Positions 4,450 to 59,995 of a stretch of 64,000 nucleotides of DNA are shown piece after piece. Position numbers and translations under genes: made by a program. How positions within the stretch are numbered: position 1 is the stretch's first letter; every line of letters starts with the position of its first letter. This DNA comes from Streptomyces kaniharaensis (lineage in GTDB: Bacteria > Actinomycetota > Actinomycetes > Streptomycetales > Streptomycetaceae): assembly GCF_009569385.1 (NCBI RefSeq), contig NZ_WBOF01000001.1:3358001-3422000 (forward strand), read 5' to 3'. The notes under the pieces were generated by a model. That model was given only the letters and a program-made list of their open reading frames with translations, had not been told where the DNA came from and ran no database searches.

Positions 4450-4920
4450 GTGCAGGTTCTTCAGGTACAGCTGGCGGTGCAGGCGGATCCCGCCGAGGTC
4501 GGCCGGGCCCGGCGGTGGGTGCGCTCGCGGCTGCTGAACCACGGGGTGGACCCGGACGCGCCGATGGCCGAGACGGTGGTGCTGGTGGTCTCCGAGCTGG
4601 TGACCAACGCCGTGGTGCACACCGGCTCTCCGGCCGTGCTGCGGCTCTGCCTGCCGCTGGACGGCGCCCCGGTGGGTGCGCCGGCCGGCCCGCTGCGGGT
4701 GGAGGTCGCGGACGCCAGCGAGGTGGCGCCGGCCCCGCGGCACGCCGGGGCGGACGCGGACGCCACCAACGGGCGGGGCCTGGAGCTGGTCGAGCTGCTC
4801 TGCGACCGCTGGGGCTGGTACCCGGACGGCTCGGGCAAGCGGGTCTGGTGCGAAATCGGCACGGATGCCCCGCCGGTGGACCCGCTGGAGAGCGCGGACT
4901 GGGCGGCCCTCGCGCCGTAG
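4450..4920 (+). CDS. ATP-binding protein of the anti-sigma/serine kinase (HATPase_c) type
   Basis: A 156-residue single-domain GHKL ATPase resembling RsbW/SpoIIAB-like proteins, which are abundant in Streptomyces. The N-box is SELVTNAVVHTG (about residues 50-61) and the glycine-rich G-region is ATNGRGLELVELLCDRWGW (about 105-123). GTG 4450 was chosen because it follows GGTGGAGAG and the helix before the N-box starts close by; the open frame reaches upstream to 4309 without homology. Members either phosphorylate anti-sigma antagonists or bind partners; which applies here cannot be told. A link to the divergent ECF sigma factor is only positional. Confidence 0.85.
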   Translation: MQVLQVQLAVQADPAEVGRARRWVRSRLLNHGVDPDAPMAETVVLVVSELVTNAVVHTGSPAVLRLCLPLDGAPVGAPAGPLRVEVADASEVAPAPRHAGADADATNGRGLELVELLCDRWGWYPDGSGKRVWCEIGTDAPPVDPLESADWAALAP

Positions 4921-56967: not shown

Positions 56968-57168
56968 TCAGATGAGGTGGTCGAACTCGCCGGCCTTGGC
57001 TCCGAGGATGAAGGCGCGGAGCTTGGCGGTTGTGGTGGTGACGATGACGTCGGGATCGTCAGATTCGCGAAGGTGGCGGAGGTCATCTGTTCCGGCGGCC
57101 AGCTCAAGGCAGTTATTGGCACCTTCGGCGTTGCTGTATGACGACTTCTGCCAGGAGAAGTTGGACAT
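56968..57168 (-). CDS. DUF397 domain small protein
   Basis: A 66-residue DUF397 protein with the family hallmark WQKSSYSNAEGANNCLELA and RESDDPDVIVTTTTAKLRAF. In streptomycetes DUF397 genes nearly always pair with an Xre/DUF5753 regulator and often an HATPase gene; the class includes WhiJ-associated and AbaA-locus proteins. It begins 10 bp after the stop of the regulator gene. ATG 57168 has GAAAGG upstream. Its molecular role is thought to be antagonising the paired regulator. Confidence 0.92.
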   Translation of the reverse strand: MSNFSWQKSSYSNAEGANNCLELAAGTDDLRHLRESDDPDVIVTTTTAKLRAFILGAKAGEFDHLI

Positions 57169-57178
57169 CACGGGCCTT

Positions 57179-58063
57179 TCACGACTGAAGTAGATACAGA
57201 AGATGATGAAGGAGCCCCCACGAGTCACGGTTAGGGAGTCCTTGCAACGCCGTCTCGCGATCGGCAACTGGCAGGGCGTGGGCACTGAGTTGCTGGAACA
57301 TCTCGCCATAGGATGCCAGTTCAGCTTGCTCGCCAAGGTGCTCCGCGCGCTTCGGGCCATCCAAAATGACCGTCGCAAGTTCAGGGCAGCCGGGATCACA
57401 GAAGAGGAAAGAGCCTGAGAACGGTGGGATTCTCGGCGCGGTGAACGGCAGTACCTGGAGATCCACGTTGGGAAGCTCGGCGATCCTGAGCAGATGCACC
57501 AGTTGGGCTCGCGTGACATCATCTCCGGCGAATCGCATCCGCAGCGCGGCCTCGTGAATGACGAACCGGAAATGCCGCTGCTTGTCGTCGGTCAGGATCC
57601 GCTGTCGCTCCATGCGGAACTGGACCTGTGTCGCCGTATCCCACTTCCTTGGCCCTCCGTTGTAGAGCGCTTCGGTGTAGGCGGGTAGTTGCAGGATGCC
57701 GGGGATGTGCAGTGTCTCGTAGTTGTCGAGTCGGGTTGCCCGATCTTCGCACTCGGAGAGATCAAGAGCGAGGGCCGGGACCTTGCCCTCGAACTTGCTC
57801 CACCAGCCCTTGCCAGTGCTTCGCCCCATCTCCGCAAGAACCCTGCGATAGGTCGGATCCGTGCAGCCGTAGGCGTCGAGCCAGACTTCGAGGCGTTCGG
57901 GGTTGAGCGTGATCCGGCCTGCCTCGGTGTGGCTCACTGCCGGAACCTTCATGCCGACCAGGGCGCCGGCCTCTGCCGACGAGAGGCCGGCGGCCGTTCG
58001 CAGGCGCTGAAGCTCTTCGCCGAATCGGCGCTGTCGCTGGCTGATTGGTCCCTTGTATCCCAC
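57179..58063 (-). CDS. Xre-type helix-turn-helix regulator with DUF5753 domain (WhiJ-like)
   Basis: A 294-residue regulator. The helix-turn-helix is at about residues 18-60 (LRTAAGLSSAEAGALVGMKV, PAVSHTEAGR); the DUF5753 domain (about 100-285) has LDLSECEDRATRLDNYETLH, IPGILQLPAYTEAL and the end FQQLSAHALPVADRETALQG. GTG 58063 has GGAAGGA upstream. It forms an operon with the downstream DUF397 gene and is divergent from an HATPase gene, the standard WhiJ/AbaA-type set tied to Streptomyces development. Third-position GC is lower here than in nearby genes. Confidence 0.93.
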   Translation of the reverse strand: MGYKGPISQRQRRFGEELQRLRTAAGLSSAEAGALVGMKVPAVSHTEAGRITLNPERLEVWLDAYGCTDPTYRRVLAEMGRSTGKGWWSKFEGKVPALALDLSECEDRATRLDNYETLHIPGILQLPAYTEALYNGGPRKWDTATQVQFRMERQRILTDDKQRHFRFVIHEAALRMRFAGDDVTRAQLVHLLRIAELPNVDLQVLPFTAPRIPPFSGSFLFCDPGCPELATVILDGPKRAEHLGEQAELASYGEMFQQLSAHALPVADRETALQGLPNRDSWGLLHHLLYLLQS

Positions 58064-58141
58064 GATCGTCCTTCCCTCCGGCGCAGTCTCGCGCACATCC
58101 CATGCAGGACGCCACCAACGAGTGATGGAGAGTCTGAGGGC

Positions 58142-58171
58142 TTGCAAGTTTGGCAGACGGGCCCCTACTCT
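58142..58171 (+). promoter_or_regulatory. Candidate promoter of the HATPase gene
   Basis: TTGCAA at 58142-58147 and TACTCT at 58166-58171, 18-bp spacer, in the 265-bp divergent region. Transcription would start near 58178, about 150 nt before the ATG. Confidence 0.4.
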
Positions 58172-58328
58172 CAGTGTTGCACCGATCACACGACGGAGCG
58201 TCAGTAACGCCTTGTCTCAAGGCAGTAGGCGCCTGCTGCCCAAGCACCGAAGAGCAGCCATGTCCCGGCCTGGCTCACGGCGACGTATCCGTCGACCACC
58301 TCTCCTCTCCTCCCTCCCGAGGTCTCCT

Positions 58329-58694
58329 ATGCGTGCCTTGAACCCTCCGGACTGGACCGCCGCCCGGCTCGAACTCCGCGACCTCCTCGTCGGCGCCGGC
58401 TGGCCGTCCGACACCATCTCGGACGCCGAACTCGCCCTCCACGAGCTGATCGCCAACGCGTGGTTGCACGCGGGCAACCTCGCGCCCTTCGTCGTCCTCA
58501 CCCTCCGGCCCAACCGCCTCCGCGTCTCCGTCAGCGACGACAGCCCGGACCTCCTTCCCGACCACCCGCCCTCCACCCTCCTCTCCGAGTCCGGCCGAGG
58601 CCTCCACCTCGTCCGTGCCCTCACCCACCGCTTCGGCACCGAGCTGCGCAAGCAGGGCAAGTCCGTGTGGTTCGAGCTGGACGTCGTCGCGTGA
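58329..58694 (+). CDS. HATPase-domain regulatory protein of the WhiJ/AbaA-type cassette
   Basis: A 121-residue GHKL ATPase. The N-box is ALHELIANAWLHAG and the G-box SESGRGLHLVRALTHRFG. It lacks extra domains, like other anti-sigma-like ATPases accompanying Xre/DUF397 pairs. ATG 58329 marks where third-position GC becomes high; ATG 58260 would add 23 poorly coding residues. The stop overlaps the next start (GTGA). A regulatory link to the divergent Xre gene is inferred from the repeated genomic association of these families. Confidence 0.87.
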   Translation: MRALNPPDWTAARLELRDLLVGAGWPSDTISDAELALHELIANAWLHAGNLAPFVVLTLRPNRLRVSVSDDSPDLLPDHPPSTLLSESGRGLHLVRALTHRFGTELRKQGKSVWFELDVVA

Positions 58695-58948
58695 GCCGCC
58701 GTCACCCGATGAAGCCCACCGACCCCCGCGTCCGGCACTACACCGACGACCAGATCCGCACGCTCATCGCCGAAGTCCACGAGCGCGGAAAGAAGTTCGG
58801 CCTGGTCTGGCCCTCCGCCACCACGGACAGGACCCTCGACGGCCGTGTCCTCGTCCGCTTCAACACGGCCCCGGTCACGACTCTCCTCAACCTGCTGAAC
58901 CTCCTCCTCGATGCCGAACGGGACAACGACGACCCGTGCGTTTCCTGA
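58691..58948 (+). CDS. Small hypothetical protein
   Basis: An 85-residue soluble protein with no recognised domain. Visible features are a basic start (VSRRHPMKPTDPRVRHY), a helical TDDQIRTLIAEVHERGKKFG and a Leu-rich TTLLNLLNLLLDAERDNDD. GTG 58691 overlaps the HATPase stop by 4 bp, suggesting coupled translation; ATG 58709 is the alternative. Codon bias is that of a real gene. Confidence 0.65.
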   Translation: MSRRHPMKPTDPRVRHYTDDQIRTLIAEVHERGKKFGLVWPSATTDRTLDGRVLVRFNTAPVTTLLNLLNLLLDAERDNDDPCVS

Positions 58949-59052
58949 TCGGCACGGCCTTCGCCGTCCTCCTCGCCCTCGCGATCGCCACCGTCGCCCT
59001 CGGCGTCATCACCGCTCTCAACGTTGCAAAGCCCGACGAAGAAGAGTCCTGA
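58936..59052 (+). CDS. 38-residue single-helix membrane peptide
   Basis: A very small protein: one hydrophobic helix (residues 3-29, FLIGTAFAVLLALAIATVAL) and an acidic tail (KPDEEES). GTG 58936 lies inside the end of the preceding gene (13-bp overlap). Third-position GC and the operon position support it, but there is no homology evidence. Confidence 0.5.
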   Translation: MRFLIGTAFAVLLALAIATVALGVITALNVAKPDEEES

Positions 59053-59053
59053 G

Positions 59054-59353
59054 ATGTCTGACACCACCGACCCCGTCGTCAACGCCCTCGCCGCGACCCG
59101 CTACGCCGTCGCCGCCGCGTTCAACTCCTTCGGCCCCGCCGCCGTCACCCCCGCCGCCCCGGACGACTTCGACTGGCCCGAACTCGAAGCCTTCATCCAC
59201 CAGCTCGGCTTCGCAGCCGACCACTCCGACGCCGACCTCAACCTCTACCGACTCCTCACCGCCGTCCAGCGCATCGCCTACCGCGAGGGCGCCGGCCGCA
59301 ACCCGAACTGGTCCCGGGCCCGCCTCAACCCTCTTCCCAGACCCGCCGATTAG
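59054..59353 (+). CDS. Small hypothetical protein
   Basis: A 99-residue, acidic, mostly helical protein (AATRYAVAAAFNSFG, DDFDWPELEAFIHQLGFAAD, NLYRLLTAVQRIAYREGAG). I do not recognise a family. ATG 59054 follows the preceding stop by 1 bp and has GAAGAAGAG upstream. It is the last gene of the HATPase operon; a repeated hairpin element starts 20 bp after its stop. Confidence 0.65.
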   Translation: MSDTTDPVVNALAATRYAVAAAFNSFGPAAVTPAAPDDFDWPELEAFIHQLGFAADHSDADLNLYRLLTAVQRIAYREGAGRNPNWSRARLNPLPRPAD

Positions 59354-59373
59354 CGCCAAGCGGCGTCCGCGCA

Positions 59374-59400
59374 CAGGAAGTCGGCCGGTCCGACTTCCTG
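59374..59400. repeat. Intergenic palindromic repeat, copy 1
   Basis: CAGGAAGTCGG at 59374-59384 and CCGACTTCCTG at 59390-59400, 5-nt loop. The same 11-bp stem recurs at 61284-61310. Both copies lie 10-20 bp after a stop codon. Confidence 0.8.
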
Positions 59401-59542
59401 CGCAGGCCTGTTGCGGACAGAAGTGCGATGAACCGATCCCGCGCGCCGCCCTACACTCCGTCCACTTCGTCGTGGCCACAGGTGTCGTCCGTGTCGTGGA
59501 CGCCGATGTCTACGACGCCGCCCGGGGTTTCAACATCTATTC

Positions 59543-59995
59543 GTGGCTGTACTTTCCGGCGGCGGCCCCGATATCTTCGCGCCGCTCGTCCGATCCTCCC
59601 GCACGATCCCCGAACGGAATCCCTTGCAAGACCAGGTTGCCGCCGGCCTCGTGGGCCTGCTCCTCGACAGCATCCAAGTCCTCGTTCCCCTGGTGGGAGC
59701 CGTCGTGGCCGCCGTGGCCATCCGCCGCAGAGGACGCAATGCCCGACTGGCCCTCGCGGGGTGCCTGGTCATGCTGCCGGGGCCGATCGTCTCCGTTCTC
59801 GTCCCGGCGCTGGGCTGGGAAACCATCATCCGCGTGTTCGGGCCCTTCATGGCGAACAATGTGCTGTCCGCGATCGCCCTCCCCTTCCACCTGGTCGGGT
59901 TCGGCCTTCTGCTCGCCGGAGCACTGGCCGCACCCACCCCGCAGACCCCGGCCGCCGCGAGCCAGCCGGTCGAGGACACCGCCGCGACGGTCTGA
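59543..59995 (+). CDS. Small membrane protein of unknown function
   Basis: A 150-residue protein with three likely helices (about 33-60, 70-90, 102-132): LVGLLLDSIQVLVPLVGAVV, ALAGCLVMLPGPIVSVLVPA and FHLVGFGLLLAGALAA. No family recognised. GTG 59543 is the longest start; TTG 59624 (124 aa, CGGAA upstream) may be the true one because conserved-looking helices start there. The upstream 150 bp are less GC-rich than the surroundings. Confidence 0.5.
   Translation: MAVLSGGGPDIFAPLVRSSRTIPERNPLQDQVAAGLVGLLLDSIQVLVPLVGAVVAAVAIRRRGRNARLALAGCLVMLPGPIVSVLVPALGWETIIRVFGPFMANNVLSAIALPFHLVGFGLLLAGALAAPTPQTPAAASQPVEDTAATV

Follow-up and report, generated by a model that had tools for sequence, protein, structure and literature searches.

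A WhiJ/AbaA/BldB-type cassette of Streptomyces kaniharaensis with a HATPase operon enlarged by small genes and preceded by a conserved leader hairpin

A stretch of 64,000 nucleotides from Streptomyces kaniharaensis (contig NZ_WBOF01000001.1, positions 3,358,001 to 3,422,000; hereafter the window) was analysed with regard to a gene cassette located at window positions 56968–59353. Genes for a DUF397 protein and an XRE/DUF5753 regulator on the minus strand face here a plus-strand operon of four genes, coding for a HATPase and the small proteins p85, p38 and p99. The comparison with relatives revealed a recurrent gene order, protein families restricted to one genus in the samples searched, constraint at the amino-acid level and a hairpin with covariation ahead of the HATPase gene. 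The cassette is tentatively regarded as one of the WhiJ/AbaA/BldB type, whose effector operon was enlarged in Kitasatospora and which may work as a membrane-held HATPase set, a reading considered nearly as likely to be right as wrong. The features of the locus were as follows:

56968–57168, minus strand: DUF397 (BldB-paralogue-like) gene, 66 amino acids (aa), Pfam PF04149 with E 3.1e-14
57179–58063, minus strand: gene of the WhiJ-like regulator with XRE helix-turn-helix (HTH) and DUF5753 domains, 294 aa, GTG start, Pfam PF19054 with E 5e-42 and HTH_31 with E 4e-12
58162–58204, plus strand: conserved block, a putative promoter, from the alignment of 10 p99-group loci
58166–58171, 58177–58181 and from 58200, plus strand: -10-like TACTCT, TTGCA and GTCAG box, respectively, all parts of the putative promoter block
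58221–58240, plus strand: optional leader hairpin GGCAG...CTGCC, from the leader alignment, present in some cassettes only
58243–58284, plus strand: conserved leader hairpin (model R1), 42 nt, from its score of 63.8 bits, covariation and distribution
58329–58694, plus strand: HATPase_c_2 (AbaA-like) gene, 121 aa, Pfam PF13581 with E 2.2e-12, genus-restricted subfamily
58691–58948, plus strand: p85 gene, 85 aa, GTG start, genus-specific family
58936–59052, plus strand: p38 gene, 38 aa, single-helix peptide with a membrane location predicted from hydropathy alone
59054–59353, plus strand: p99 gene, 99 aa, acidic (isoelectric point 4.9), putative accessory protein

A first-pass annotation of this DNA had described a standard set of Xre/DUF5753 regulator, DUF397 protein and divergent HATPase, and all three were recognised by Pfam. 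It had also reported that the HATPase operon codes for proteins of 85, 38 and 99 aa joined by overlaps of 4–13 bp or 1-bp gaps, which was borne out: the p85 start overlaps the HATPase stop by 4 bp, p85 and p38 overlap by 13 bp, and 1 bp separates p38 from p99. The conserved promoter block, the leader hairpin and the expansion within the genus were absent from that annotation. The GC content of third codon positions was 0.82–0.93 in the operon genes and 0.72–0.78 in the regulator and DUF397 genes. For p85, p38 and p99, nothing above the cut-off was found in Pfam, NCBIfam or PADLOC, and the regulator matched NCBIfam TransRegSco1979 with 142 bits, under the cut-off of 350.

The occurrence of p85 was followed in related genomes. 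In a first search of 150 family genomes, p85 turned up in 17, every one belonging to the genus of the window. Profile A1, built from 30 members, found it in 34 of 70 genomes of the genus (one to eight copies each), in 34 of 394 family genomes from 17 genera, exclusively in the own genus, and in one of 396 phylum genomes, which was the window's own. Twenty-two named loci came from Kitasatospora aureofaciens, K. xanthocidica, K. sp. MAA19 and strains filed as Streptomyces, and the genus carrying the p85 family is presumably Kitasatospora. The searches for p38 covered this genus, those for p79 (a further small family, described below) outside the genus covered plasmids only, and those for p99 covered the 150 family genomes, where two weak matches in another genus (E 4e-4) were taken as chance, as was a p99 call in locus L111 (L and G numbers denote loci and genomes of this survey).

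The HATPase gene was the constant neighbour of the small genes. In 121 of 132 copies p85 began at most 60 nt from where a subfamily HATPase match ended, and in 99 of 108 copies p38 lay within 800 nt behind such a HATPase. Viewed from the other side, 145 subfamily HATPases were accompanied by p85 in 121 cases, by p38 in 99 and by at least one of them in 134. These counts omit the three weakest of 135 p85 rows and the 11 of 156 HATPase matches that scored below 72.8 bits; four p85 copies scored as lacking a subfamily HATPase (G539, G556, G558 and G053:C22) have a lower-scoring HATPase directly upstream. The association of the small proteins with the HATPase, which the first-pass annotation had proposed to check in relatives, was thus found there.

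The cassette HATPase itself appears to be a separate, genus-restricted subfamily. In the window's genome four HATPases, including the query itself, scored at least 109 bits against the query and all others at most 54 bits, and in two genomes without p85 the best match reached at most 62 bits. At E 1e-16 or better, the subfamily was found in 42 genomes of the own genus only, among 225 family genomes of 17 genera. Residues E39, N43, D70 and G89-R90-G91 were conserved in at least 90% of 83 proteins; the N-box Glu/Asn and G-box residues of the ATP site are therefore present, as in AbaA-like and RsbW-like HATPases. Searched against NCBIfam, the cassette HATPase matched RsbA_anti_sig (E 4e-7) and RsbW (E 0.009), both far under the curated cut-offs, and no match at E 0.1 was obtained for its profile among PDB sequences. 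Nothing of the HATPase subfamily, p85 or the hairpin was found outside the genus in the genomes sampled, one hairpin match taken as chance aside. As a separate observation, a second HATPase gene was noticed at 4450–4920 of the window (plus strand; 61 bits with the cassette HATPase profile), and no DUF397, DUF5753 or p85 gene was found elsewhere in the window using own profiles.

To describe the variation of the cassette, fetched loci with a HATPase of more than 95 bits in a purpose-built profile were collected, giving 92 cassettes; the 22 named loci (L117–L138) were left out as repeats. The loci had been chosen by p85, p38, p99 or HATPase matches and are not a random sample, and genes were called using a simple GC-based caller for the window and 72 loci, then for 62 more with some repeated places. 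A divergent DUF5753 gene was present in 88 of the 92 cassettes and a DUF397 gene in 86. The order HATPase-p85-p38-p99 recurred in relatives; the common operon form was HATPase-p85-p38, and HATPase-p85-p79-p38 as well as HATPase-p79-p38 without p85 were also encountered. Judged from these gene orders, the operon is a mosaic of small modules. A membrane peptide was recognisable in 66 of the 92 cassettes (59 by the p38 profile and seven as a different hydrophobic open reading frame, ORF), a strict ORF scan alone giving 58, and a comparable hydrophobic ORF occurred in none of 86 control regions downstream of DUF397 genes. The p99 gene occurred as a single copy in 12 of the 70 genomes of the genus, in 11 cases inside a cassette and once as an orphan (L089, G096). 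The set of three small proteins suggested by the first-pass annotation therefore stands in part: p85 and p38 recur with the HATPase, but the set is not uniform, given the restricted occurrence of p99 and the cassettes without a membrane peptide. Correlations of distances, available for 51 of the 92 cassettes, were 0.53 for HATPase and DUF5753, 0.33 for HATPase and p85 and 0.25 for p85 and DUF5753 (null maxima at most 0.16), which would be expected if the sets were largely inherited as units and modules were exchanged in some cases.

Several further variants were noticed among these loci. Eleven members of p79 were aligned; the family (ERTTV..., 62–91 aa) replaces or follows p85 in L169, L171–L173, L177, L178 and others. 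Two p79 members gave no Pfam match above the cut-off, one member showing a weak similarity to DUF6295 (E 0.04, below cut-off). In L047 (2738–4445) and L105 (4043–4685 and upstream) HATPase-p85-p38 was present without DUF397/DUF5753 neighbours, and a GntR-like gene was seen by eye upstream at L047, which may place the effector operon there under a different regulator. Genomes both with and lacking p85 contained a recurring tandem pair of related HATPase genes (71–87 bits with the profile), at L191, L192, L200, L201 and L202; in four of these loci a 573-aa gene adjoins the pair. Cassettes in different genomes adjoin apparently the same efflux-type ATP-binding cassette (ABC) transporter genes, alike by sequence in L042, L051, L053 and L056 and by gene lengths in L062 and L079, which suggests a group inherited at one place for a long time. 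Behind p99, at 59460–59534 of the window, lies a C-terminal remnant (68% identity over 25 residues, E 3e-6) of an 88-aa protein whose intact form follows p99 in L196/L121; no other part of the gene was recognisable in the window. An apparent fusion of HATPase and p85 in L097 looks like a frameshift, and one of p85 and p38 in L054 is possibly a frameshift or sequencing error; neither was used as evidence.

The constraint on the small genes was evaluated by placing the observed substitutions at random and counting the amino-acid changes, with a threshold of P<0.05. Fewer changes than under random placement were obtained in comparisons with p99-group loci for the HATPase (9 of 9), p85 (8 of 8) and p99 (9 of 9), these comparisons all sharing the window sequence and hence not being independent. 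Against paralogues from the own genome the test was significant for p85 in 3 of 3, for the HATPase in 2 of 2 and for p38 in 2 of 3 comparisons. A simple ratio of nonsynonymous to synonymous substitution rates (dN/dS) had medians of 0.52–0.65 and was set aside in favour of the placement test because it was regarded as inflated by the extreme third-position GC.

The intergenic region of the ten p99-group loci contained a strongly conserved block with the -10-like TACTCT. As a consensus scan of 57900–59600 detected no sigma-70 promoter or terminator, the promoter was called entirely from the conservation of this box. Downstream of it lies a hairpin of the pattern CCG-NA-GAGC-A-GCC-loop-GGC-CUG-GCUC-A-CGG, described by the covariance model R1, which was built from 25 sequences with the structure drawn by eye on a MAFFT alignment. 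Beyond the hairpin itself, R1 scored at most 15.9 bits in the window. Cassettes were searched in 98 sources (the window and 97 loci) of about 220 loci and then in 11 more, giving a match in 63 of the 92. In 394 family genomes, 91 matches were found in 38 genomes, 90 of them at HATPase cassettes, and 87 lay 38–133 nt upstream of a subfamily HATPase (median 53 nt). Among the others, one stood at a contig end beside DUF5753 (L219), one preceded a frameshifted HATPase-p85 (L097) and one headed a decayed cassette (L220); a match in another genus (G756, L221, 33.6 bits) lay inside an open reading frame and was taken as chance.

Covariation was tested on 68 aligned copies (66 distinct) in an alignment fitted to the model, using 500 shuffles. 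Pairing was observed in 96.4% of cells, slid structures pairing at 21–42% only. Forty cells were changed on both sides compared with 13.5 in shuffles, and the covariation score was 0.152 compared with 0.071, neither value being reached in any of the 500 shuffles. In the MAFFT alignment of 25 sequences, 15 cells were changed on both sides compared with 4.2 (0 of 500 as high), and the number of pair types did not agree with this (7 compared with 6.3; 202 of 500 as high). Comparison of the copies thus shows a conserved hairpin with covariation, probably that of a leader RNA. None of three leaders searched against Rfam scored above a gathering threshold (best match 21 bits, no match and 6.6 bits, respectively), the 21-bit match being to the hepatitis delta virus ribozyme (gathering score 50) inside the HATPase gene. 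A coding role of the conserved GGCCTGGCTCACGGCGAC stretch was ruled out by the distance between the conserved arms, which varies without keeping frame.

Concerning the proteins, the best 19-aa hydropathy window of the p38 copy in the window was 2.6, and the mean over 59 copies was 2.68, making a placement at the membrane via p38 plausible. The p85 protein was predicted to form a helix, a hairpin and a leucine-rich second helix (predicted local distance difference test, pLDDT, 70). Because of this predicted leucine-rich helix fold and the position of p38, the model suggests that p85 could be an adaptor between the ATPase and the membrane peptide. Thr64, at the N-terminus of the predicted helix 62–79, was present in 30 of 30 aligned members, residue 63 being Ser in 24, Ala in 5 and Thr in 1. 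With the p85 profile, a search of PDB sequences yielded nine weak matches (E 0.17–1.5); ribosomal protein S15 accounted for four, and all were taken as chance.

From these data we infer the following mode of action. The XRE/DUF5753 protein, restrained by its DUF397 partner, would act from the shared intergenic region to activate the divergent operon; the pair should control the four-gene operon because of the analogy with WhiJ/BldB of S. venezuelae. The transcript would begin just past the TACTCT box and carry the hairpin ahead of the HATPase start codon, where it might tune translation or stability of the message. Since the genes overlap by 4 and 13 bp, translation may be coupled, so that HATPase, p85 and p38 would be made in fixed proportion. 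p85 would then dock on the HATPase and p38 would hold the pair at the membrane, where the HATPase could bind or phosphorylate a target like RsbW/SpoIIAB-like ATPases, altering when the cells develop or produce antibiotics. p99 and p79 could be exchangeable accessories giving each of up to eight paralogous cassettes its own specificity.

A number of observations weigh against this mode of action. No membrane peptide was recognisable in 26 of the 92 cassettes, and for p38 the constraint reached significance in no more than 5 of the 9 p99-group comparisons. The structure models were moderate for p85 and poor for p99 (pLDDT 54), the best match of p85 to PDB folds had E 0.66, and the distances of HATPase and p85 were correlated more weakly than those of HATPase and DUF5753. 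No sigma factor or STAS domain of Pfam, expected from an RsbW/SpoIIAB switch, was found in the six cassette proteins and two neighbouring ORFs. The R1 hairpin was missing from 29 of the 92 cassettes, three of which (L189, L190 and L193) fit a looser pattern; it was missing from L044, L088, L090 and L197–L199, which are of the p99 type and keep p85 and p38, and from 48 of 135 subfamily HATPases in hairpin-bearing genomes under the stricter filters of that scan. Only 4 of its 11 pairs were changed on both sides, a number reached in 28 of 500 shuffles, and 6 of 11 never vary (the six invariant ones among the seven outer pairs being neutral on covariation). The folding energy was not unusual relative to shuffled sequence (z -0.35).

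Several other explanations were considered for the same data. The HATPase could belong to a partner switch without the membrane, in which p85 would be its phosphorylated antagonist or substrate (via Thr64) and p38 a separate accessory. It would suit this proposal that p85 directly follows more of the subfamily HATPases than p38 does and that the invariant Thr64 opens the second helix; however, no STAS similarity was seen in Pfam for 30 p85 members nor among the nine weak PDB sequence matches, and p38 recurs also without p85 (L169, L171–L173), leaving it unlikely yet a serious candidate. A toxin-antitoxin-like role, with p38 as a hydrophobic membrane-disturbing peptide silenced together with its operon by the XRE/DUF397 pair and leader RNA, is considerably less probable. 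It would agree with the short hydrophobic helix of p38, the patchy multi-copy distribution and proposals that XRE-DUF397 pairs are type II toxin-antitoxin systems. Nevertheless, the p38 gene comes third in the operon, after that of an ATPase whose ATP site is conserved, and can be missing while HATPase and p85 are kept (L053, L062, L063); moreover, XRE-DUF397 pairs of S. coelicolor regulate antibiotic production, judging from titles (PMC10364602, PMC6262351), and normal growth is reported in a passage of PMC10364602.

For the hairpin, a DNA operator bound as an inverted repeat by the XRE regulator is an improbable substitute for an RNA element. The hairpin does lie in the shared intergenic region, and palindromic operators also give symmetric changes, but its bulges are conserved and asymmetric (NA against A; A against CUG), its length of about 39–62 nt includes a variable loop, and it always points towards the HATPase and sits downstream of the -10-like box. 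As seen by eye, it also stays alike among cassettes that differ in sequence upstream of that box. The idea that the small ORFs are meaningless frames or mobile-element passengers was given hardly any weight and is largely refuted already: patchy spread, many copies and some decayed copies (L220) would fit it, but recurring order and overlaps together with amino-acid constraint ruled out passengers or artefacts. p85 had no match in 72,556 plasmid and 50,697 phage records, nor p79 in the plasmid records, and mobile elements were discarded on these grounds.

Beyond the enlarged WhiJ/AbaA/BldB-type cassette, a bolder form of the membrane-held set can be envisaged, namely a genus-specific, multi-copy, membrane-anchored ATPase switch whose HATPase/p85/p38 complex senses the envelope and is produced under the control of a new leader-RNA class. 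This is thought rather unlikely, though possible, and so is its corollary, doubtful to the same extent, that the leader RNA is common to most copies whereas regulator pair and promoter are each copy's own.

By every feature testable here, the core of the locus is, on sequence grounds, a WhiJ/AbaA/BldB cassette: an XRE-HTH protein with DUF5753, an adjacent DUF397 gene and HATPase_c beside the regulator. Similarly, the Streptomyces bldB/whiJ/abaA clusters, as presented in PMC10294661 and PMC4255298, join an XRE-HTH regulator, DUF397 and HATPase in one cluster, with a HATPase or other effector beside the regulator and many paralogues per genome. In contrast to those accounts, the HATPase here is of a separate subfamily; p85, p79, p38 and/or p99 come after it, and in many cassettes a conserved leader hairpin stands ahead of it. 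In S. venezuelae, according to PMC10294661, the divergent effector iosA is switched on by WhiJ9, and all five abaA paralogues go up when BldB is lost; binding of the intergenic region by the regulator and activation of the effector, known for WhiJ9-iosA, may apply here by analogy. The iosA message is described there as leaderless, and a conserved leader here would therefore be a difference. All three known whiJ-cluster protein types are predicted to be cytoplasmic, and any sensing would probably require the uptake of small molecules, as stated in a passage of PMC4255298; a membrane peptide in the operon would remove this difficulty. The abaA locus of S. coelicolor (orfA-orfE) comprises five genes including one for a HATPase, and its overexpression raises actinorhodin, as cited in PMC10294661. 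No relative of p85 was found outside its own genus in the 394 family genomes.

The RsbW/SpoIIAB anti-sigma factors belong to the same HATPase fold family. In Streptomyces conservons (cvn), Roadblock, DUF742 and GTPase genes stand beside a HATPase; none of these domains was found among the eight proteins scanned with Pfam. Another small operon with its regulator, abeABCD-abeR of S. coelicolor, stimulates actinorhodin and has a regulatory RNA. The literature searched, in which subscription papers were thinly covered, yielded no account of the small proteins or of the hairpin. Of the undescribed system supposed by the first-pass annotation, the small proteins hold up. The core is already known, and to it have been added the HATPase subfamily, p85, p79, p38, p99 and the leader RNA.

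In streptomycetes the WhiJ/AbaA/BldB clusters are regulatory sets that exist in many duplicated copies. A sister genus that ties the HATPase to more proteins, one of them a membrane peptide, offers direct handles: baits for finding the HATPase target, a cellular place and a testable RNA element. The cassettes also show that WhiJ/AbaA/BldB sets evolve by swapping small protein modules. If the envelope-sensing switch were true, it would supply the membrane link that WhiJ clusters of Streptomyces are thought to lack. About half of the genus carries the enlarged cassette, in up to eight copies per genome, and this hints at a set for signalling that is linked with the cell membrane.

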